A stretch of DNA of 64,000 nucleotides from contig NZ_LQBO01000001.1 in assembly GCF_001507555.1 (NCBI RefSeq), positions 806,001 to 870,000 of the forward strand, read 5' to 3'. The notes beneath the pieces were generated by a model, which made no database searches, was not told where the DNA came from, and was given only the letters and a program-made list of their open reading frames with translations. Source of the DNA: Thiomicrospira sp. XS5. Lineage in GTDB: Bacteria; Pseudomonadota; Gammaproteobacteria; Thiomicrospirales; Thiomicrospiraceae. This document shows, in pieces, positions 45,953 through 56,344 of this stretch (positions are counted from its first letter, which is position 1; each line of letters opens with the position of its first letter). Both the position numbers and the translations under genes were made by a program.

Positions 45953-45980
45953 AAAAACCGCCAGGCCTGGCGGTTTTTTT
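45953..45980 (+). terminator. Palindromic terminator after yqhA
   Basis: A perfect 26-bp palindrome, arms AAAAACCG/CGGTTTTT around CCAGGCCTGG (45961-45970), followed by more T. It isolates the CRISPR-Cas locus from the housekeeping genes. Confidence 0.88.
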
Positions 45981-45990
45981 GTATTCAGGT

Positions 45991-46048
45991 TTGGCTAAAG
46001 CCCGCGTTATGGTATAGTCGAAGATAAAAAATAAGTAATATTGACTAT
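45991..46048 (+). promoter_or_regulatory. Promoter and inverted repeat before the WYL regulator
   Basis: TTGGCT at 45991-45996 and TATAGT at 46013-46018 with a 16-bp spacer form a good sigma70 promoter. ATAGTC at 46014-46019 is mirrored by GACTAT at 46043-46048, so an operator would cover the -10 box and the start site. Confidence 0.55.
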
Positions 46049-46062
46049 CTTGCCCTGAACGA

Positions 46063-47046
46063 ATGAATAAAGCACTCCGTCAGTATCGGTTGCGAAAATG
46101 TTTGGCCGATGCACACTTTCCAGTGCAGCTTTCCACGCTTGCACAGCAATTTGAGGTGTCCGAAAAAACCATTCGGCGCGACCTTGAAACCTTAGTCAAT
46201 GATTACAATGCCCCTTGGTTTATCCATGACAATAAAATTTACCTGGATAAAGCCCGTCAGCATTCCATTGAACTACAGGATTACTGGTTTAGCCGTCAAG
46301 AAGTAGAGTCACTTTTTGCACTGAATCAAATTATCGAACAGCTTTCGCCTGGGGCACTCAAAAGTCAGTTGGAACCGTTTAAAAATCGTATTCAAGGGTT
46401 GTTGACCGATGAAGAGAGCGGCCATGATTTAAGTGTCAAAATCAAATTGCTGGAAATGGCGAGTCGACCCGTTCAGCAAGCCATTTTTCAAGGTGTGGTT
46501 CAAGCCCTAGCCGAAAATAAGCAAATGCAAATCGTCTTTTGGAATCGCTATAAAGACGAAACCCTGCTGAGAACCCTTTCGCCACAAAGGCTTATTCGCT
46601 ATAAAGACAATTGGATTGTCGATGCCTACTGCCATTTACGAAAAGGCATTCGCAGTTTTTCACTGGAAGCGATTGAAAGCATAGAACTGCTCAGTCACGC
46701 CGCCAAAGAAATGCCAGAGGCGGAAATGCAAGCCCATTTTCAAAGCAGTTACGGCATCTATGCCGGAAAAGCTAATCAACAAGCGCTCATTAAGTTTTCA
46801 CCTTATATTTCCCGCTGGGTGCAATACGAAAACTGGCACCCGGAACAAATCGGCCATTGGAGCATCGACCAAAGCTATCAACTGCAAATCCCCTACAACA
46901 AAGACGAAGAACTGATCCAAGACATTCTGAAATACGGCGAACATGCCGAAGTACTAGAACCGCCGGAACTCAGAGAAAAAATTCAGCAAACATTAAAAAA
47001 GGCGATGAAGGTTTACTCAGAGTCAGGTTTTGTCCGTGAAGACTGA
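46063..47046 (+). CDS. WYL-domain transcriptional regulator of the CRISPR locus
   Basis: A 327-residue regulator with an N-terminal DeoR-type winged HTH (STLAQQFEVSEKTIRRDLETL), a middle helical region, a WYL domain (MQIVFWNRYKDE, then SPQRLIRYKDNWIVDAYCH with WIVDAYC at the WYL position) and a C-terminal WCX-like extension. WYL regulators sense ligands, often nucleic acids or nucleotides, and are frequent in CRISPR and other defence loci. It lies 62 bp before cas12a on the same strand, so it probably controls the cas operon and itself. There is no sign of damage. Confidence 0.88.
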   Translation: MNKALRQYRLRKCLADAHFPVQLSTLAQQFEVSEKTIRRDLETLVNDYNAPWFIHDNKIYLDKARQHSIELQDYWFSRQEVESLFALNQIIEQLSPGALKSQLEPFKNRIQGLLTDEESGHDLSVKIKLLEMASRPVQQAIFQGVVQALAENKQMQIVFWNRYKDETLLRTLSPQRLIRYKDNWIVDAYCHLRKGIRSFSLEAIESIELLSHAAKEMPEAEMQAHFQSSYGIYAGKANQQALIKFSPYISRWVQYENWHPEQIGHWSIDQSYQLQIPYNKDEELIQDILKYGEHAEVLEPPELREKIQQTLKKAMKVYSESGFVRED

Positions 47047-47108
47047 TAGAGTTAATGATACACATTTTTGATAATTTCATTTTAAACCGAAAGTGAAGGA
47101 AGCTATGT

Positions 47109-50100
47109 ATGACAAAAACATTTGATTCAGAATTTTTTAATTTATATTCTCTTCAAAAAACAGTTCGTTTTGAACTCAAGCCGGTTGGTGAAACAGCCTC
47201 GTTTGTTGAAGATTTTAAAAACGAAGGTTTGAAACGAGTTGTTTCAGAGGATGAACGGCGTGCGGTTGATTACCAAAAAGTGAAAGAAATTATTGATGAC
47301 TACCACCGAGATTTTATTGAAGAATCGCTGAACTATTTTCCTGAGCAGGTCTCAAAAGACGCTTTGGAACAAGCTTTTCACCTTTATCAAAAACTAAAAG
47401 CCGCTAAGGTTGAAGAGCGTGAAAAAGCATTGAAAGAATGGGAAGCCCTTCAGAAAAAACTGCGCGAAAAAGTTGTTAAATGTTTTTCAGATTCAAACAA
47501 AGCACGCTTTTCCCGCATTGATAAAAAAGAACTGATTAAAGAAGATTTAATTAACTGGTTGGTTGCACAAAATCGCGAAGATGACATTCCAACCGTTGAA
47601 ACCTTTAACAACTTTACGACTTATTTTACGGGGTTTCATGAAAACCGAAAAAACATTTATTCAAAAGACGATCATGCCACAGCCATTTCATTTCGACTCA
47701 TTCATGAAAACCTGCCTAAGTTTTTTGATAATGTGATCAGCTTTAATAAATTGAAGGAAGGATTTCCAGAGCTGAAATTTGATAAGGTTAAGGAAGATTT
47801 AGAAGTTGATTATGACTTGAAACATGCCTTTGAAATCGAATACTTTGTCAATTTTGTTACCCAAGCCGGAATTGACCAATATAACTATCTTTTGGGGGGT
47901 AAAACCTTAGAAGACGGCACCAAAAAGCAAGGCATGAATGAACAAATCAATCTGTTCAAGCAACAGCAAACCCGAGACAAAGCCCGACAAATTCCCAAAC
48001 TCATACCATTGTTTAAACAAATTCTAAGCGAACGAACGGAAAGCCAATCGTTTATTCCAAAACAATTTGAATCAGACCAAGAGCTATTTGACTCACTGCA
48101 AAAACTGCATAACAACTGCCAAGATAAATTTACCGTACTGCAACAAGCCATTTTAGGCTTAGCCGAAGCAGATCTGAAAAAAGTATTCATTAAAACATCT
48201 GATCTTAATGCGCTATCAAATACCATTTTTGGAAATTACAGTGTGTTTTCGGATGCGTTGAATTTATACAAAGAATCGCTCAAAACAAAAAAGGCGCAAG
48301 AAGCGTTTGAAAAACTACCCGCTCACAGCATTCATGACTTGATTCAATATTTGGAGCAATTTAATAGCTCTTTGGATGCAGAAAAACAGCAATCAACTGA
48401 CACCGTACTGAATTACTTTATTAAAACAGACGAGCTGTATTCTCGGTTCATAAAATCAACGAGCGAAGCCTTCACACAAGTACAACCACTCTTTGAATTG
48501 GAAGCATTAAGCTCAAAACGTCGTCCACCGGAAAGTGAAGACGAAGGCGCAAAAGGTCAGGAAGGGTTTGAGCAAATTAAACGCATAAAAGCCTATTTGG
48601 ATACCTTGATGGAGGCGGTGCATTTTGCAAAACCACTTTATCTGGTGAAGGGGCGCAAAATGATTGAAGGTCTGGACAAAGACCAAAGTTTCTATGAAGC
48701 CTTTGAAATGGCTTACCAAGAACTAGAAAGTCTGATTATTCCAATCTACAACAAAGCTCGTAGTTATTTAAGTCGTAAACCGTTTAAAGCGGACAAATTC
48801 AAAATTAATTTTGATAATAATACATTGCTTTCCGGTTGGGATGCTAATAAAGAAACGGCTAACGCTTCAATTTTGTTTAAGAAGGATGGTTTGTATTATT
48901 TAGGAATCATGCCTAAAGGAAAAACGTTTTTGTTCGATTACTTCGTTTCATCGGAAGATTCTGAAAAGTTAAAACAAAGAAGACAAAAAACCGCCGAAGA
49001 AGCGCTTGCGCAAGATGGCGAAAGCTACTTTGAAAAAATTCGTTACAAGCTGTTACCTGGCGCCAGCAAAATGTTGCCGAAAGTATTTTTTTCCAACAAA
49101 AACATAGGGTTTTACAACCCAAGTGATGACATACTTCGTATCAGGAATACAGCCTCTCACACTAAAAACGGAACACCGCAAAAAGGGCACTCTAAAGTAG
49201 AGTTTAATTTGAATGATTGTCATAAGATGATTGATTTCTTTAAATCAAGCATTCAAAAGCATCCAGAGTGGGGAAGTTTTGGATTCACCTTTTCAGATAC
49301 ATCAGATTTTGAAGATATGAGCGCCTTTTATCGAGAAGTCGAAAACCAAGGTTATGTCATTAGTTTCGATAAAATAAAAGAAACTTACATTCAGAGTCAA
49401 GTTGAACAGGGGAACCTATATTTATTCCAAATCTACAATAAAGACTTCTCGCCCTACAGCAAAGGCAAACCAAATTTACACACGCTTTACTGGAAAGCGT
49501 TGTTTGAGGAAGCCAACCTAAATAATGTGGTGGCAAAACTCAATGGTGAAGCTGAAATTTTCTTTAGGCGACACTCAATCAAAGCATCTGATAAAGTGGT
49601 GCACCCAGCGAATCAAGCCATTGACAATAAAAACCCGCATACCGAAAAAACGCAAAGCACCTTTGAATATGATCTTGTAAAAGACAAGCGCTATACCCAA
49701 GACAAATTCTTCTTCCATGTACCGATTTCATTGAACTTTAAGGCACAAGGTGTTTCAAAATTTAACGATAAAGTGAATGGATTTTTAAAGGGTAACCCAG
49801 ATGTCAATATTATTGGCATTGACCGAGGCGAACGACACCTTCTGTATTTCACTGTGGTGAATCAGAAAGGTGAAATTTTGGTTCAAGAGTCGCTTAATAC
49901 CCTAATGAGTGATAAAGGGCATGTGAATGACTACCAGCAAAAACTCGACAAAAAAGAACAAGAACGCGATGCCGCTCGCAAAAGCTGGACGACGGTTGAA
50001 AATATCAAAGAATTAAAAGAAGGCTATTTATCTCATGTTGTTCATAAGTTGGCACACCTGATTATTAAATACAATGCCATTGTTTGCTTGGAAGACCTGA

Positions 50101-51005
50101 ATTTTGGTTTCAAACGCGGGCGTTTTAAAGTGGAAAAACAAGTTTATCAGAAATTTGAAAAAGCGCTTATTGATAAGCTTAACTACTTGGTATTTAAAGA
50201 AAAAGAGTTAGGCGAGGTGGGCCATTATCTAACCGCCTATCAGTTGACCGCACCGTTTGAAAGTTTCAAGAAGTTAGGCAAGCAAAGTGGCATATTGTTT
50301 TATGTTCCGGCGGATTACACCTCCAAAATTGACCCAACCACCGGGTTTGTCAACTTTCTTGATCTGCGTTATCAGAGTGTCGAAAAAGCCAAACAGCTCT
50401 TAAGCGACTTTAATGCCATTCGTTTTAATTCAGTACAAAACTATTTTGAGTTCGAAATAGATTACAAAAAACTCACACCCAAACGTAAAGTTGGTACTCA
50501 GAGTAAATGGGTGATTTGTACCTATGGAGATGTCCGCTATCAAAATCGGCGTAATCAAAAAGGTCACTGGGAAACGGAAGAAGTCAATGTGACTGAAAAA
50601 CTAAAAGCCCTTTTCGCCAGTGATTCCAAAACTACAACCGTAATCGATTACGCCAATGACGACAACCTAATTGACGTCATTCTGGAACAGGACAAAGCCA
50701 GCTTCTTCAAAGAACTGTTATGGTTATTAAAACTCACCATGACGCTCCGCCACAGCAAAATCAAAAGTGAAGACGACTTTATTCTTTCACCCGTTAAAAA
50801 CGAACAAGGCGAGTTTTACGATAGTCGAAAAGCGGGCGAGGTGTGGCCTAAAGATGCAGACGCCAATGGCGCTTATCACATAGCGTTGAAAGGCTTGTGG
50901 AATCTGCAACAGATCAATCAGTGGGAAAAGGGTAAAACACTTAATCTGGCGATTAAAAACCAGGATTGGTTCAGTTTTATTCAAGAAAAGCCCTATCAAG
51001 AATAA
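47109..51005 (+). CDS. cas12a: Type V-A CRISPR effector nuclease Cas12a (Cpf1)
   Basis: A single-protein RNA-guided DNA nuclease of 1298 residues, within the normal 1200-1350 range. The RuvC catalytic residues are all present: D905 (GIDRGERHLLYF), E995 (CLEDLNFGFKRGR) and D1251 (DADANGAYHIALKG). The crRNA-processing residues match those of Francisella Cas12a by position: H832 (VVHPANQAI), K841 (DNKN) and K858 (VKDKRY). Before these come the REC lobes and the WED/PI regions, with N-terminal start LYSLQKTVRFELKPVGET. AAGGAAG precedes ATG 47109. The protein should process its own pre-crRNA and need no tracrRNA. Base composition is lower in GC than in the flanking chromosome and no CAGGCCTG occurs in it. 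Confidence 0.98.
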   Translation: MTKTFDSEFFNLYSLQKTVRFELKPVGETASFVEDFKNEGLKRVVSEDERRAVDYQKVKEIIDDYHRDFIEESLNYFPEQVSKDALEQAFHLYQKLKAAKVEEREKALKEWEALQKKLREKVVKCFSDSNKARFSRIDKKELIKEDLINWLVAQNREDDIPTVETFNNFTTYFTGFHENRKNIYSKDDHATAISFRLIHENLPKFFDNVISFNKLKEGFPELKFDKVKEDLEVDYDLKHAFEIEYFVNFVTQAGIDQYNYLLGGKTLEDGTKKQGMNEQINLFKQQQTRDKARQIPKLIPLFKQILSERTESQSFIPKQFESDQELFDSLQKLHNNCQDKFTVLQQAILGLAEADLKKVFIKTSDLNALSNTIFGNYSVFSDALNLYKESLKTKKAQEAFEKLPAHSIHDLIQYLEQFNSSLDAEKQQSTDTVLNYFIKTDELYSRFIKSTSEAFTQVQPLFELEALSSKRRPPESEDEGAKGQEGFEQIKRIKAYLDTLMEAVHFAKPLYLVKGRKMIEGLDKDQSFYEAFEMAYQELESLIIPIYNKARSYLSRKPFKADKFKINFDNNTLLSGWDANKETANASILFKKDGLYYLGIMPKGKTFLFDYFVSSEDSEKLKQRRQKTAEEALAQDGESYFEKIRYKLLPGASKMLPKVFFSNKNIGFYNPSDDILRIRNTASHTKNGTPQKGHSKVEFNLNDCHKMIDFFKSSIQKHPEWGSFGFTFSDTSDFEDMSAFYREVENQGYVISFDKIKETYIQSQVEQGNLYLFQIYNKDFSPYSKGKPNLHTLYWKALFEEANLNNVVAKLNGEAEIFFRRHSIKASDKVVHPANQAIDNKNPHTEKTQSTFEYDLVKDKRYTQDKFFFHVPISLNFKAQGVSKFNDKVNGFLKGNPDVNIIGIDRGERHLLYFTVVNQKGEILVQESLNTLMSDKGHVNDYQQKLDKKEQERDAARKSWTTVENIKELKEGYLSHVVHKLAHLIIKYNAIVCLEDLNFGFKRGRFKVEKQVYQKFEKALIDKLNYLVFKEKELGEVGHYLTAYQLTAPFESFKKLGKQSGILFYVPADYTSKIDPTTGFVNFLDLRYQSVEKAKQLLSDFNAIRFNSVQNYFEFEIDYKKLTPKRKVGTQSKWVICTYGDVRYQNRRNQKGHWETEEVNVTEKLKALFASDSKTTTVIDYANDDNLIDVILEQDKASFFKELLWLLKLTMTLRHSKIKSEDDFILSPVKNEQGEFYDSRKAGEVWPKDADANGAYHIALKGLWNLQQINQWEKGKTLNLAIKNQDWFSFIQEKPYQE

Positions 51006-51016
51006 ATGAGTAAAAA

Positions 51017-51574
51017 ATGGAAACTTATATTCCCATTTCATACCTGAACGACTTTATTTTTTGCCCGCGTTCAATTTACTTTCACCAACTATACGGGCGG
51101 GCTTCCACCCGCCTGTATCACTCCAAGGACCAGGCGAAAGGGTTGGCCGCGCACCAAACCATAGACAGTCAATCCTACAGTACCGATAAAACGATATTGC
51201 AAGGATTGGAAGTCTTCAGCGAGCGTCACAACCTCTGTGGAAAGATTGATATTTATTACGCCAAAACCAAGGAATTGGTTGAACGCAAGAAAAAAATAAA
51301 AATCATCTATCCGGGCTATATTTTTCAAATTTACGCCCAATATTTCGGAATGGTTGAAATGGGCTATACAGTCAAAAAACTCAAGTTATACAGCATGGAT
51401 GACAATAAAAATTACCCGATTTCACTGCCCGAAGACGAACCGGAGCAACTCAAAAAATTTGAAGGCTTAATCGATGCGATAAAACAATTCAGTCTTTCAG
51501 GCCATTTTTCACCCAACATCAATAAATGCCAGCGTTGCATTTATCGAAACTTATGTGATCAATCCTTATGTTAA
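51017..51574 (+). CDS. cas4: CRISPR-associated exonuclease Cas4
   Basis: Trims prespacers and helps choose those next to a PAM. The 185-residue product has the iron-sulfur cysteines C16 (FIFCPRSIY) and a C-terminal CQRCIYRNLC cluster. RecB-type nuclease motifs follow KIDIYY (D) and LVERKKKIK (E, K). The ATG lies 11 bp after cas12a and the stop overlaps cas1. Order cas12a-cas4-cas1-cas2 is the type V-A standard. Confidence 0.94.
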   Translation: METYIPISYLNDFIFCPRSIYFHQLYGRASTRLYHSKDQAKGLAAHQTIDSQSYSTDKTILQGLEVFSERHNLCGKIDIYYAKTKELVERKKKIKIIYPGYIFQIYAQYFGMVEMGYTVKKLKLYSMDDNKNYPISLPEDEPEQLKKFEGLIDAIKQFSLSGHFSPNINKCQRCIYRNLCDQSLC

Positions 51575-52542
51575 GCGCACCTGATTTTGAACAAAAACAG
51601 ATCATTTTTGCCCTGCTCAGCCGAGGCGAAAAACTCAGTTTTAAAAACGACAATATCGTTATTAAAGACCAAGACGGAAAAATCCGACATCAATCCACTT
51701 GCTATCGGCTATTTGCCGTTATCATTGTCGGCCACGCCAGCATCACTAGCGGACTGATTCAGCGAGCACAAAAATATGGATTTACCATTATCCTCACCAC
51801 TCATGGACTCAGCCCCTACGCGAGTTTTCATGCCAAAGCCGACGGCAATGTATTATTAAGAAAAAAACAATACGACTATCAATCACTGGAAATTGCCCAG
51901 CACTTGATTTACAACAAAATTGATCAGCAAATGAGTGCTTTAAACCGCATTCGCAAAAAATCATCCGAGTTAAAACAAGCCATTAAAGATTTAAAGGGTT
52001 ATCGTGATCGTTTACCTGACGATAGTCACAACTTGCAAGAAATACTTGGTCTGGAAGGTATCGCATCGCGTGTCTACTTTAAGCAGATATTTGCGGAACA
52101 CGATTGGCAAGGTCGAAAGCCAAGAGCCAAGCAAGACCCAACCAATACGCTGCTGGATATTGGCTACACACTCCTGTTTAACGTTATAGAATGCCTGCTC
52201 AACCTATACGGATTTGATGTTTACAAAGGCGTTTATCATCAAGAGTTCTATCAGCGTAAATCCCTGGTTTGCGACATCGTTGAACCCTTTAGACCCATTA
52301 TTGACTACCGAATTCGCAAAGCCTACCAGCTCAACCAAATTCATATAGACGACTTTCAAATCGTGCAAAACCAATATCGCCTATTTGGTGAAAAAGCCAA
52401 ACCCTATACGGCGTTTTTACTACAAGCCATTTTGGAACACAAACAACAAATTTTTCTTTATGTACAAGCTTATTATCGAGCCTTTATGCGTCAAAAACCC
52501 ATCGCAGAATATCCGGTTTTTGAATTGGAGGCAAAATGTTGA
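51568..52542 (+). CDS. cas1: CRISPR integrase Cas1, type V
   Basis: Integrates new spacers together with Cas2. The 324-residue product has the metal-binding residues E in LGLEGIASRVYF, H in GVYHQEFYQ and D in LVCDIVEPFRP. The N-terminal beta domain has VIIVGHASITSGLIQRAQKY. It overlaps cas4 by 7 bp and cas2 by 7 bp, so translation is coupled. It looks complete. Confidence 0.96.
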   Translation: MLSAPDFEQKQIIFALLSRGEKLSFKNDNIVIKDQDGKIRHQSTCYRLFAVIIVGHASITSGLIQRAQKYGFTIILTTHGLSPYASFHAKADGNVLLRKKQYDYQSLEIAQHLIYNKIDQQMSALNRIRKKSSELKQAIKDLKGYRDRLPDDSHNLQEILGLEGIASRVYFKQIFAEHDWQGRKPRAKQDPTNTLLDIGYTLLFNVIECLLNLYGFDVYKGVYHQEFYQRKSLVCDIVEPFRPIIDYRIRKAYQLNQIHIDDFQIVQNQYRLFGEKAKPYTAFLLQAILEHKQQIFLYVQAYYRAFMRQKPIAEYPVFELEAKC

Positions 52543-52808
52543 TTGTGACCTACGACATTCAAAGCGACAAAACTCGCACCAAATTCGCAAAATTTTTATC
52601 CAAATTCGGCTACCGCCTTCAATACTCTGTTTTTGAAATCAAAAATAGCCGTCGAATTCTGGAAATTATTCAAACAGAGCTGGAAAGCAATTTCGGCAAA
52701 AAGTTTGAACAAACCGACAGTGTCATTATTTTTGACCTCAGCAAACAATGCAAAATACACCGATTTGGCTACGCCAAAAATGATGATGAAGACCTAATTA
52801 TTCTCTGA
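52536..52808 (+). CDS. cas2: CRISPR-associated protein Cas2
   Basis: Structural partner of Cas1 in spacer integration. The 90-residue product has the ferredoxin-like fold with VTYDIQSDKTRTKFAKFLSK at the N-terminus and QYSVFEIKNSRR in the second strand-helix. It overlaps cas1 by 7 bp and ends 148 bp before the first repeat. Confidence 0.95.
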   Translation: MLIVTYDIQSDKTRTKFAKFLSKFGYRLQYSVFEIKNSRRILEIIQTELESNFGKKFEQTDSVIIFDLSKQCKIHRFGYAKNDDEDLIIL

Positions 52809-52956
52809 TAAAATAATTAACTCAGGTCTTTTCGAGAAAAAACTGCAAACCTTGGTCTTAATGAGAAAAATCATGAAAAAATGGTTCTTTAACAAGCTGG
52901 AAAATAAATTTGGTAACGAATTTACAGTCTTTCAAAGCCGTTTTGGAATTTTACCT
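52809..52956 (+). promoter_or_regulatory. CRISPR leader
   Basis: The 148-bp AT-rich region between cas2 and the first repeat, the usual place of the array promoter and the integration signal. It also contains a 33-codon frame (ATG 52861) whose stop TAG is made by the first repeat. No clear -10/-35 pair was found by eye. Confidence 0.7.
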
Positions 52957-55249
52957 CTCTAGCAGGCCTGGCAAATTTCTACTGTTGTAGATAACGTCCT
53001 GAATTCAGGGCAATATCCTCTAGCAGGCCTGGCAAATTTCTACTGTTGTAGATAAATTCACCCATTCTTTGTCATCAGACTCTAGCAGGCCTGGCAAATT
53101 TCTACTGTTGTAGATAACGTCCTGAATTCAGGGCAATATCCTCTAGCAGGCCTGGCAAATTTCTACTGTTGTAGATAAATTCACCCATTCTTTGTCATCA
53201 GACTCTAGCAGGCCTGGCAAATTTCTACTGTTGTAGATACTTAACACTTGAAAATGTAACAATGAGCTCTAGCAGGCCTGGCAAATTTCTACTGTTGTAG
53301 ATTCCATCACCGTCCTCCTTTAGTGATTCTCTAGCAGGCCTGGCAAATTTCTACTGTTGTAGATCAGTTCAATAAGGTCTTCGTATTCCGCTCTAGCAGG
53401 CCTGGCAAATTTCTACTGTTGTAGATTAATCGTCCCTATACATCTTATCTATCATTCTCTAGCAGGCCTGGCAAATTTCTACTGTTGTAGATATAAACCA
53501 CAATGCCATAATACCGGAACTCTAGCAGGCCTGGCAAATTTCTACTGTTGTAGATGGTGCTAACCCTAAAATGAGCAGTGGAAACTCTAGCAGGCCTGGC
53601 AAATTTCTACTGTTGTAGATCTGGTGCTGAAATGTCAACATTGTAACTCTAGCAGGCCTGGCAAATTTCTACTGTTGTAGATTGCAATGGTACGCTCCAT
53701 TTTCTGGATCTCTAGCAGGCCTGGCAAATTTCTACTGTTGTAGATAGCGAACGATTCGGTCATCCGGTAAACCTCTAGCAGGCCTGGCAAATTTCTACTG
53801 TTGTAGATAATATCGTCCCAGGCCTTGGTTGGCACCAACTCTAGCAGGCCTGGCAAATTTCTACTGTTGTAGATATTGGTGTTGTCTGCAATCATGGCTC
53901 CTCTAGCAGGCCTGGCAAATTTCTACTGTTGTAGATACTTAATCGCTTGACAATGTAACAGCGCTCTAGCAGGCCTGGCAAATTTCTACTGTTGTAGATG
54001 CCGAACATATCCTGCTGATTGTCAGATTCTCTAGCAGGCCTGGCAAATTTCTACTGTTGTAGATTCAAGGTGATGACTGAATTGCTCGGTACTCTAGCAG
54101 GCCTGGCAAATTTCTACTGTTGTAGATTGGGTACTATGAACAATGTTCGTCGTGACCTCTAGCAGGCCTGGCAAATTTCTACTGTTGTAGATGATTGCCA
54201 AAACTGTTTAACTTGCCATCTCTAGCAGGCCTGGCAAATTTCTACTGTTGTAGATCGGACGAAGTCCAACTCGAGCCGGAAGAACTCTAGCAGGCCTGGC
54301 AAATTTCTACTGTTGTAGATTTGCGCCGCGCCATGTGGCACCCGGTCTCTAGCAGGCCTGGCAAATTTCTACTGTTGTAGATTGTGTCATAAGTCCATCC
54401 AGTTTTAAACTCTAGCAGGCCTGGCAAATTTCTACTGTTGTAGATGCGCGGCCTTATGACGGAAATAGCGCACTCTAGCAGGCCTGGCAAATTTCTACTG
54501 TTGTAGATGGCGCACTGTGAAACGGTGAGCAGTTCCTCTAGCAGGCCTGGCAAATTTCTACTGTTGTAGATAAGATGAATTGACCACTCTTGAGCAACTC
54601 TAGCAGGCCTGGCAAATTTCTACTGTTGTAGATTCAAGCTTGGCTTCGTTTTCTTTGTACTCTAGCAGGCCTGGCAAATTTCTACTGTTGTAGATCGCAC
54701 CATCAACATAAACAGAATTAACAATCTCTAGCAGGCCTGGCAAATTTCTACTGTTGTAGATCGAATACCCAGCACGAATGGCAGCCTGAGCTCTAGCAGG
54801 CCTGGCAAATTTCTACTGTTGTAGATCAGTACTCCAAGGCGGCGCGGCTTCGCCTCTAGCAGGCCTGGCAAATTTCTACTGTTGTAGATATAGAGCGTAA
54901 ACACGGTAGAATAGCCGGCTCTAGCAGGCCTGGCAAATTTCTACTGTTGTAGATAAGTTCGCATAATGTATAGAGTGTGACCTCTAGCAGGCCTGGCAAA
55001 TTTCTACTGTTGTAGATGAATGCGGTTACCGCGTGGAATCAGAACTCTAGCAGGCCTGGCAAATTTCTACTGTTGTAGATTCCGCCGCCGTGCCGCCAAT
55101 AAAGACCTCTAGCAGGCCTGGCAAATTTCTACTGTTGTAGATAAAAACGATCCGCATCCTTTTACCACCCTCTAGCAGGCCTGGCAAATTTCTACTGTTG
55201 TAGATCTGATGGCGGCGTTAACTTCCTGAGCACTCTAGCAGGCCTGGCA
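52957..55249 (+). CRISPR. Type V-A CRISPR array, 36 full repeats plus one truncated
   Basis: The 36-bp repeat begins CTCTAGCAGGCCTGGC, then AAATT, and ends TCTACTGTTGTAGAT, the Cas12a processing stem-loop (TCTAC/GTAGA with loop TGTT). I count 36 intact, essentially identical repeats (first 52957-52992, last 55170-55205), 36 spacers of 25-30 bp, and a final repeat at 55233 that matches only its first 17 bases. Transcription is with the cas genes. Spacers 1 and 2 recur exactly as spacers 3 and 4, and spacers 5 and 16 are near copies. The 5' half of the repeat contains the genome's CAGGCCTGG palindrome. Confidence 0.98.
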
Positions 55250-55293
55250 GGTTTAATTGACCATTACATTATGACTATTTTGGGAGTTAAGAT

Positions 55294-55533
55294 ATGTCGC
55301 TCACTATTATAAAAAATGTTTACAAAACCCTTCGCCGCGCTTTGTTTGGTCGCTTTATTTTGAATCGCCTTCGGCATCGTCGGTTTATTAGGATGCTGAA
55401 CCATTATCGGGCTAATCCCGACCTGGCTAAGATCGCTGTTAACTCGGATGATAACGAGAACGACTACCTAGATGGGGATCGCGTTGTTACTGGCATCACC
55501 GGAAAATTGATTCATTTTAGGGCGAGAAAATAA
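55294..55533 (+). CDS. Small basic hypothetical protein
   Basis: Not recognised. The 79-residue product is very basic in its first half (KTLRRALFGRFILNRLRHRR) and acidic later (SDDNENDYLDGD). There is a good GGGAG 11 nt before ATG 55294. It lies 44 bp after the CRISPR array on the same strand. It could be an ordinary small cytosolic or DNA-binding protein; nothing ties it to CRISPR function except position. Confidence 0.5.
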   Translation: MSLTIIKNVYKTLRRALFGRFILNRLRHRRFIRMLNHYRANPDLAKIAVNSDDNENDYLDGDRVVTGITGKLIHFRARK

Positions 55534-55560
55534 CGCAACGTTAGCTTAAAGTTTGACTGG

Positions 55561-55592
55561 TCTTTTACCAGGCCTGGGCGTTTTGGTAAGAG
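55561..55592 (+). repeat. CCAGGCCTGGGCGTTTT unit, first of two
   Basis: CCAGGCCTGG at 55568-55577 continues into GCGTTTT, and the whole is bracketed by TCTTTTACC and GGTAAGAGA, an imperfect outer stem. It could terminate the small gene at 55294. The left arm does not pair with GGGCG, unlike the clean terminators elsewhere. Confidence 0.5.
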
Positions 55593-55617
55593 ATGCTTCG
55601 GCTGCGCTCAGCATGAC
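55592..55617. repeat. 26-bp REP-like sequence, copy 1
   Basis: A GC-rich, partly self-complementary unit (ATGCTTCGG ... CTCAGCAT). It differs by about two bases from the reverse complement of 61466-61491 and is similar to 61519-61544. It lies in the intergenic region between the small gene and the flavin reductase gene. Confidence 0.55.
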
Positions 55618-55690
55618 ACTTTGGTATCCGGCCTGCGAGAATCAGCGTTGGCTGTGTGATGGGTTTGGAAAATGTTCAGACCTGATTTGA

Positions 55691-55707
55691 CCAGGCCTGG
55701 GCGTTTT
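55691..55707 (+). repeat. CCAGGCCTGGGCGTTTT unit, second of two
   Basis: An exact 17-bp copy of the unit at 55568-55584, 123 bp apart. It lies 35 bp before the 3' end of the convergent flavin reductase gene and could act in its termination. Confidence 0.55.
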
Positions 55708-55741
55708 TGATATTGATGTTTGGGTTGCTTAAATGGTTTCT

Positions 55742-56344
55742 TTAAGGCCGCTCAAGGGCAAACCGATCACGGGTCGTGGAATAGAGGTCGCCGCCGAGTT
55801 TGCCGATGGCATCGAGTTGGTCGGCTTGTATCATGCCGTCCTGAACGATGGCGTCGTCGATGAAAATGTTGACCACGTCGAGCAGGATCAGCGTGCCGCC
55901 GGTGGGTTGGTCGGAAATCGGTAGAAGTTCGCGCAGTTTGCATTCGTAGCGCACTGGCGCGTTGGCGACGCTTTTGGCGCGGACTTTTTCGCTGTTGCAA
56001 GCGGGAATGTCGGCGGCGGTGAATTCGCTGGTTTCCGGTGGCAGGGCGGCGCAGGAGGCGTTCATTTTGTCGGCCATCTCGGCGCTGACGATATTGACCA
56101 CGGCTTCGCCGGTTTCTTTCAGGTTTCGTAGCGTGTCTTTTTCTTGTTGGGTTTGCGGCATCACGTGGGTGATGGTGAGCACCGGCGGATTGACGCTGGC
56201 GACGCTGAAAAATGAATAGGGGGCGATGTTATTGATGCCTTGCGCGCTGAGCGTGCTGATCCAGGCGATTGGGCGGGGGATAATGCCGCCGACCAGCATT
56301 TTATAGATTTGCAAGGGTTCCAGTTGGGCGATGTCGTGATGCAT
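55742..56344 (-). CDS. Flavin reductase family protein (FMN-binding split barrel)
   Basis: A 200-residue flavin-binding protein of the DIM6/NTAB family. It has the family N-terminus LVGGIIPRPIAWISTLSAQG, NIAPYSFFSVASVNPPVLTI, and the middle RNLKETGEAVVNIVS. Such proteins bind FMN and reduce it with NAD(P)H or act as partner reductases; the substrate here is unknown. It is 9 bp downstream of the YdcF-like gene, probably in one transcript with it and the GGDEF gene. Confidence 0.9.
   Translation of the reverse strand: MHHDIAQLEPLQIYKMLVGGIIPRPIAWISTLSAQGINNIAPYSFFSVASVNPPVLTITHVMPQTQQEKDTLRNLKETGEAVVNIVSAEMADKMNASCAALPPETSEFTAADIPACNSEKVRAKSVANAPVRYECKLRELLPISDQPTGGTLILLDVVNIFIDDAIVQDGMIQADQLDAIGKLGGDLYSTTRDRFALERP

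Follow-up and report, generated by a model that had tools for sequence, protein, structure and literature searches.

Why does every repeat of a CRISPR array carry the very word that is most enriched in the chromosome of its host? The question is raised by a type V-A CRISPR-Cas12a locus (Table 1) in the window, i.e. the whole 64,000-nt stretch of DNA that was analyzed. We found 41 copies of GCAGGCCTGGC in the window relative to a mean of 0.01 in the shuffled window, with 37 within positions 52957-55249 and four elsewhere (10979, 26100, 28500, and 58936 on the minus strand); the genome as a whole has 57 copies besides those of the array. The 37 array copies agree with the earlier note, which had placed the word in all 36 repeats and in the truncated last one. 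Outside the array, the window has 23 copies of CAGGCCTG relative to 1.13 expected from a second-order Markov model, which makes it the top enriched 8-base palindrome, and among the 9-mers of 461.7 kb of the own genome without the array, CAGGCCTGG ranks first in enrichment (304 copies vs. 5.2 expected). Across the whole genome, CAGGCCTGG has 832 forward and 795 reverse copies, i.e. 795/795 after subtracting the 37 copies of the array, and the same word written backwards has 0/5. Hence, the word is enriched in the host chromosome, as had been claimed.

The array was also suggested to be the densest cluster of the motif, and this holds: the sole other triple of AGGCCTG at array-like spacing in the own genome is one group (C1:504183-504316). 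The same three-in-a-row pattern across all 62 family genomes gave no second array and isolated groups in G000, G382, G390, G398, and G413. The reported absence of the word from the cas genes is true, but 2.2 copies are expected in their 5.85 kb, and the chance of zero is 0.11.

The genes of the locus are in the order cas12a, cas4, cas1, then the array, and positions 46063-47046 presumably encode a WYL-type regulator. The array comprises 36 full repeats of identical sequence, the first starting at 52957 and the last at 55170, a truncated final repeat (55233-55249), and 36 spacers of 25-30 nt, and the repeat ends in the TCTAC/GTAGA stem-loop of type V-A repeats. The locus shares with other type V-A systems the cas12a-cas4-cas1 arrangement, a 36-nt repeat with AAATTTCTAC plus GTAGAT, and spacers of 25-30 nt. 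At the leader end (52993-53204), spacer 1 equals spacer 3 and spacer 2 equals spacer 4, a two-unit duplication, and spacers 5 and 16 (ACTTAACACTTGAAAATGTAACAATGAG and ACTTAATCGCTTGACAATGTAACAGCG) look like two versions of a single target, as from related invaders.

Table 1. Positions in the window of the CRISPR-Cas island, its genes, and the host elements in and beside it.
Feature	Positions	Strand	Description
Terminator-like two-sided element	45953..45978		Common to the window and sister species G382; directly left of the island
CRISPR-Cas island, 9.77 kb	45986..55757		Missing in G382 (sister species), where 35 other bases stand
cas12a, 1298 aa	47109..51005	+	TIGR04330, 1279.7 bits (cut-off 300)
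cas4	51017..51574	+	TIGR04328, 225.2 bits (cut-off 70)
cas1	51568..52542	+	TIGR04329, 401 bits (cut-off 300)
Cas12a CRISPR array	52957..55249	+	36 full 36-nt repeats CTCTAGCAGGCCTGGCAAATTTCTACTGTTGTAGAT, 36 spacers, and a truncated last repeat
Host element in first repeat (one of 37)	52963..52978	+	Core CAGGCCTGG then CAAATTT; the A/T tract is the invariant AAATTT of Cas12a repeats
Truncated last repeat	55233..55249	+	Core kept; 3' part diverged: GGTTTAATT
Further element in island, right of array	55569..55576		
Further element in island, right of array, near right edge	55692..55699		

The genomic element is longer than earlier described. Profiling of 173 sites outside the array, sampled from 461.7 kb of the own genome (approximately 0.37 sites per kb), showed that it consists of CCAGGCCTGG flanked by an A/T tract at positions 5-8 outward from CAGGCCTG, with a second, weaker A/T peak lying roughly one helical turn beyond the tract. 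Directly outside CAGGCCTG, G is present at +1 in 87% of the profile, followed by three loosely kept bases, then the tract with 80, 91, 85, and 69% A/T at +5 to +8 (mostly T), and then the weaker peak with 63 and 71% at +14 and +15. With the tract called as three or more A/T of the four bases at +5 to +8, it is present on both sides at 117 of the 173 sites, on one side at 53, and on neither at 3. Relative to this element, the repeat carries the palindrome only in part: the core is present, as the earlier note stated, but the repeat word is one base short of the full palindrome (GCAGGCCTGG vs. CCAGGCCTGG). Among the 173 sites, both outer bases are present in 132, one is missing in 38, and both are missing in 3.

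Some sites of the window lie between genes. Seven of the 23 are between the listed open reading frames (at least 100 aa), and four of these seven are palindromes of 24 bases or more. At positions 344, 2874, 40133, and 45962, the elements are extended to 24-26-base palindromes with A and T runs between open reading frames, and these look like intrinsic terminators.

The element varies among relatives. We found CAGGCCTGG at 100 or more copies per strand in 31 of the 62 family genomes (motif-rich), with 0-87 copies in the remainder (motif-poor), and both kinds occur within the same genus, which for the congeners we take to be Hydrogenovibrio. In three motif-poor genomes, another consensus is aligned in the same frame: CCAACCTGGCAGATTTT in G376 (taken as Hydrogenovibrio marinus) and G380 (n = 45), and CCAGCCTGGCAGATTTT in G375 (n = 29). 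Motif-poor G381 has a weak consensus, CCACCCCTGGCGATTTTT (n = 7), and G393, of another genus, has ACCGGCCGGT with A/T flanks at 36 sites, so five sampled genomes (G375, G376, G380, G381, and G393) have other cores. G397 gave no clear replacement word. Tract and flank also vary between the motif-rich genomes, with no clear tract in G420 (n = 14). Judging by sequence, these other enriched words with A/T flanks are candidate lineage dialects of one uptake-like element.

We explored how well the repeat fits the element and found that the Cas12a-invariant AAATTT of the repeat falls at the tract position. The repeat copy thus reads as an ordinary one-sided copy of the genome-wide host element, with the AAATTT of the repeat itself supplying the tract. 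Its flank ranks at the 46th percentile among genomic half-sites (27th when sites are judged by their better side), a score reached or exceeded by 2.2% of random host flanks and by 15.6% of 598 control implants into 46 other repeats, and on their left sides the array copies depart from the element profile. For the truncated last repeat, the 3' part GGTTTAATT is at the 28th percentile of genomic half-sites and is matched by 10% of random host flanks. In the host sample, ATTT four bases past the core gives 5.5x the core base rate (13/6255), TTTC five bases past the core gives 9.2x, and TTTT four bases past the core gives 29x; the precise order seen in the repeat itself, AAATTT two bases past the core, occurs at none of 364 AAATTT.

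The repeat also stands out among Cas12a repeats. In 32 of 53 others (loci L004-L084), the reverse complement of the first three bases recurs 6-13 bases on (GTC..GAC, GGC..GCC), which forms a small end stem outside the crRNA. Unlike these, the window repeat lacks the 3-bp end stem, holds the host word, and has the highest G+C in its 5' 19 bases among the 54 compared (11 of 19; the next has 10). Hence, by its 5' G+C and missing end stem, the repeat departs from its own family toward the host.

In known Cas12a systems, the 5' part of the repeat is trimmed off the crRNA. We rejected an RNA reason for the 5' half of the window repeat, since neither its predicted hairpin pairing (0.89, against a mean of 0.82 in 46 other arrays) nor its predicted pairing between neighboring 5' halves (0.46) falls outside the ranges of those arrays. 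Many Cas12a 5' halves are predicted to pair between neighboring repeats. From the trimming in known systems and this modeling, the word in the repeat may have no crRNA role, and we hold this step only as firmly as the whole explanation of which it is part (below).

We then asked how far the word extends into other arrays. A Cas12a protein search across 369 genomes of the class (presumably Gammaproteobacteria), of which 4 belong to the family, gave two matches, and G108, the sole other match, has a Cas12a repeat without CAGGCCTG. Comparing the best 80 of 112 relatives gave 81 loci (one on a viral contig), and 53 of these yielded a repeat with three or more copies; CAGGCCTG is in none of the 53, and viral contigs gave no exact match. 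The earlier note had named the same 5' half in distant hosts lacking the chromosomal enrichment as what would refute its idea, and it appeared in none of these three places. The word is rare in 50 Cas12a hosts as well (at most 119 copies of CAGGCCTG in 5.4 Mb). Within the family, 30 cas1 loci were read of the 41 matches listed (the own locus among the 30), 18 with an array (own included) and 12 without, and none of the 17 other arrays has CAGGCCTG, although 8 of these are in motif-rich genomes. A host word in CRISPR repeats is no rule in this family; only one array is affected among those read.

How surprising, then, is a single such array? A random 20-mer holds the 9-mer on either strand with a probability of 9e-5, and the earlier claim that the match is unlikely by chance rested on such a random-sequence null (about 1e-4), which is the wrong one. 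The proper null for coincidences of this kind is the motif landscape of the host itself: the word is held by 0.48% of host 20-mers, and by 0.7% of those before ATTTC, 1.2% before TTTC, 1.4% before AATTTC (5/367), and 1.9% before [AT]TTT. Hence, the match is out of the ordinary without being astronomically improbable, and the earlier claim does not survive at the motif density of the host. In addition, the 37 copies amount to a single event that repeat copying would have multiplied.

These rates bear on the simplest alternative, that a freely drifting Cas12a 5' part became CAGGCCTGG by chance and a reader seeking links found one. The host rates of 0.48% overall and 0.7-1.9% before tracts are in its favor, and so is a sample of one, with the word in 0 of the 17 other family arrays and 0 of the 53 other Cas12a repeats. 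It is opposed by the random 20-mer probability, by the placement of the core where the tract fits (15.6% of implants), and by a 5' half that has the highest G+C of 54 and lacks the end stem. On balance, we regard coincidence as rather unlikely.

The history of the island bears on the direction in which the word moved. The sister species G382 is 92-94% identical and matches both island flanks with 35 bases between them; hence, 9.77 kb was either inserted in the window strain or lost in G382. The G+C of the cas genes is 0.38-0.41 relative to 0.50 for sampled host DNA, and the Cas12a repeat pattern (one variable base allowed, so variant repeats would be missed) is in the own genome only of the 62, which together favor insertion. 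The same two flanks enclose another cas1 in three congeners (G373:C1:443431-449522, G374:C1:1493194-1515151, and G380:C8:128373-136723), and the site spans about 300 bases in G375. Since different cas1 genes lie between the same flanks, exchange of CRISPR-Cas systems seems to take place at this site.

With its CRISPR locus empty, G382 has 787/781 copies of the word; hence, the repeat was not the source of the word. The earlier proposal that the chromosomal copies of the motif derive from the CRISPR repeat is excluded on this ground and also since 31 of the 62 genomes have at least 100 copies per strand and the repeat pattern is in the own genome alone; moreover, genomic copies are mostly two-sided and that of the repeat is one-sided. 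We consider this spread almost certainly wrong.

Could the array instead be kept as a beacon for transformation? Selection would then maintain the element since array DNA would be preferred for uptake and kin would share spacers. In line with this, the island has 39 copies of CAGGCCTG relative to 3.7 expected at host density, with 37 of them in the 2.3 kb of the array, and its site, which holds other cas1 genes in G373, G374, and G380 and none in G382, adjoins the shared terminator-like element. The element is missing from the other family arrays read, which argues against such selection, and we judge the idea quite unlikely. If it were true, array DNA from lysed kin would be taken up preferentially, immune memories would be shared by natural transformation, and the array could be the strongest such signal in the genome.

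Our best explanation is that the repeat word is a one-sided copy of the host element, most likely an uptake signal, that was incorporated once and copied along the array; we give this reading a probability of roughly 0.45. Given its layout, abundance, apparent use in terminators, and candidate dialects, the element would serve as a DNA-uptake signal that is recognized at the cell surface when cells undergo natural transformation. The word would have arisen once, within the 5' portion of a single ancestral repeat and next to the existing AAATTT, either in the window host or in some relative sharing its dialect, and each new repeat made at spacer acquisition would then have inherited a copy. The process that seeds elements may have converted the repeat, or it may have favored the import of an array already carrying the word. 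The earlier suggestions that the repeat adapted to its host, or that one host protein binds both motif and array, may each hold; for such a protein, the layout would suggest an uptake receptor. ComEC (PF03772) is matched in 56 of the 62 family genomes, the own one included, among them 30 of 31 motif-rich and 26 of 31 motif-poor ones, and it is also in genomes such as E. coli. Hence, being present in most motif-poor genomes too, ComEC permits uptake and diagnoses nothing. Against this reading also stand the zero count of the repeat's own AAATTT spacing in the host sample, the 27th-percentile score and unmatched left side of the repeat, the varying tract and flank among motif-rich genomes, the lack of a clear replacement word in G397, and the restriction to a single family array among those read.

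A further possibility is that the element is a highly iterated palindrome (HIP) linked to a methylase, to repair, or to a chromosome-organizing protein, with the array forming a patch of 37 sites. The element is palindromic, GC-rich, and over-represented, and it is replaced by other words where absent, all as this reading has it. There is also a precedent, since the available text of PMC6604393 places the HIP1 core CGATCG, methylated, in every Synechocystis CRISPR1 repeat, and HIPs go with methylases in what is accessible of PMC4390886. Against it, the own genome has no match to the families searched, i.e. C5 methylases (PF00145), N6/N4 methylases (PF01555), and Vsr (PF03852); 13 of the 31 motif-rich genomes match neither methylase family; and the element is asymmetric in G375, G376, and G380. 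Hence, the methylase absences weaken a HIP-methylase reading, and we hold the HIP reading to be unlikely.

Two specific causes were rejected. Vsr-type repair as the maker of CCWGG-rich words fails in that Vsr is in 5 of the 62 genomes, and only G382 of these has at least 100 copies per strand. The C5 and N6/N4 methylases are in 24 of the 62 genomes each, with none in the own genome and neither in 13 of the 31 motif-rich ones.

In the literature searched, PMC6604393 was the sole match pairing a CRISPR repeat with a highly iterated palindrome, and none joined an uptake signal, a CRISPR array, and natural transformation. Among the matches listed, there was no uptake-signal report for Thiomicrospira or relatives and none evidently about such an element for CAGGCCTGG or CCAGGCCTGG; the exact repeat sequence had no matches. 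The word of the earlier note is reinterpreted here as an element that resembles uptake signals and has candidate lineage variants within the Hydrogenovibrio family, and if the element drives uptake, the sharing of CRISPR memories by transformation is directly testable.

How does the element compare with known systems? Two features of uptake signals are found in it, over-representation on both strands and a core followed by A/T tracts. With the Pasteurellaceae USS, whose extended forms are AAAGTGCGGTCAATTTT and AACAAGCGGTCAAATTT in the accessible part of PMC12616744, the element shares a GC-rich core, CA, an A/T tract, a second A/T peak, many copies on both strands, and, at four of the 23 window sites, a terminator-like form; terminators built from uptake signals are described in the available text of PMC1852404. 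It differs in having another core (CAGGCCTGG, without the USS inner core GCGGT), in being palindromic, and in having tracts on both sides at most own sites, at about 0.37 sites per kb. With the Neisseriaceae DUS, for which PMC3630211, as far as its text is available, describes lineage-specific dialects of one abundant word, the element would share lineage-specific variants; the DUS is continuous and not palindromic, whereas the cores of the element vary in sequence and spacing even inside one genus. Since a palindromic core with two-sided tracts is unlike both USS and DUS, it counts against the reading as an uptake signal.

For the array, the closest published case is CRISPR1 of Synechocystis sp. 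PCC 6803 (PMC6604393, from the text available), in which a host-iterated word is likewise in every repeat and, as in the window, is one base off the full palindrome. CRISPR1 is of type I-D, and its word is methylated, lies inside the Cas6 hairpin, and is on a plasmid, whereas the window array has no C5 or N6/N4 methylase match in its genome, is on a chromosomal contig, and is of type V-A with the word outside the crRNA hairpin. The window array adds a class 2 (type V-A) case to host iterated words inside CRISPR repeats.
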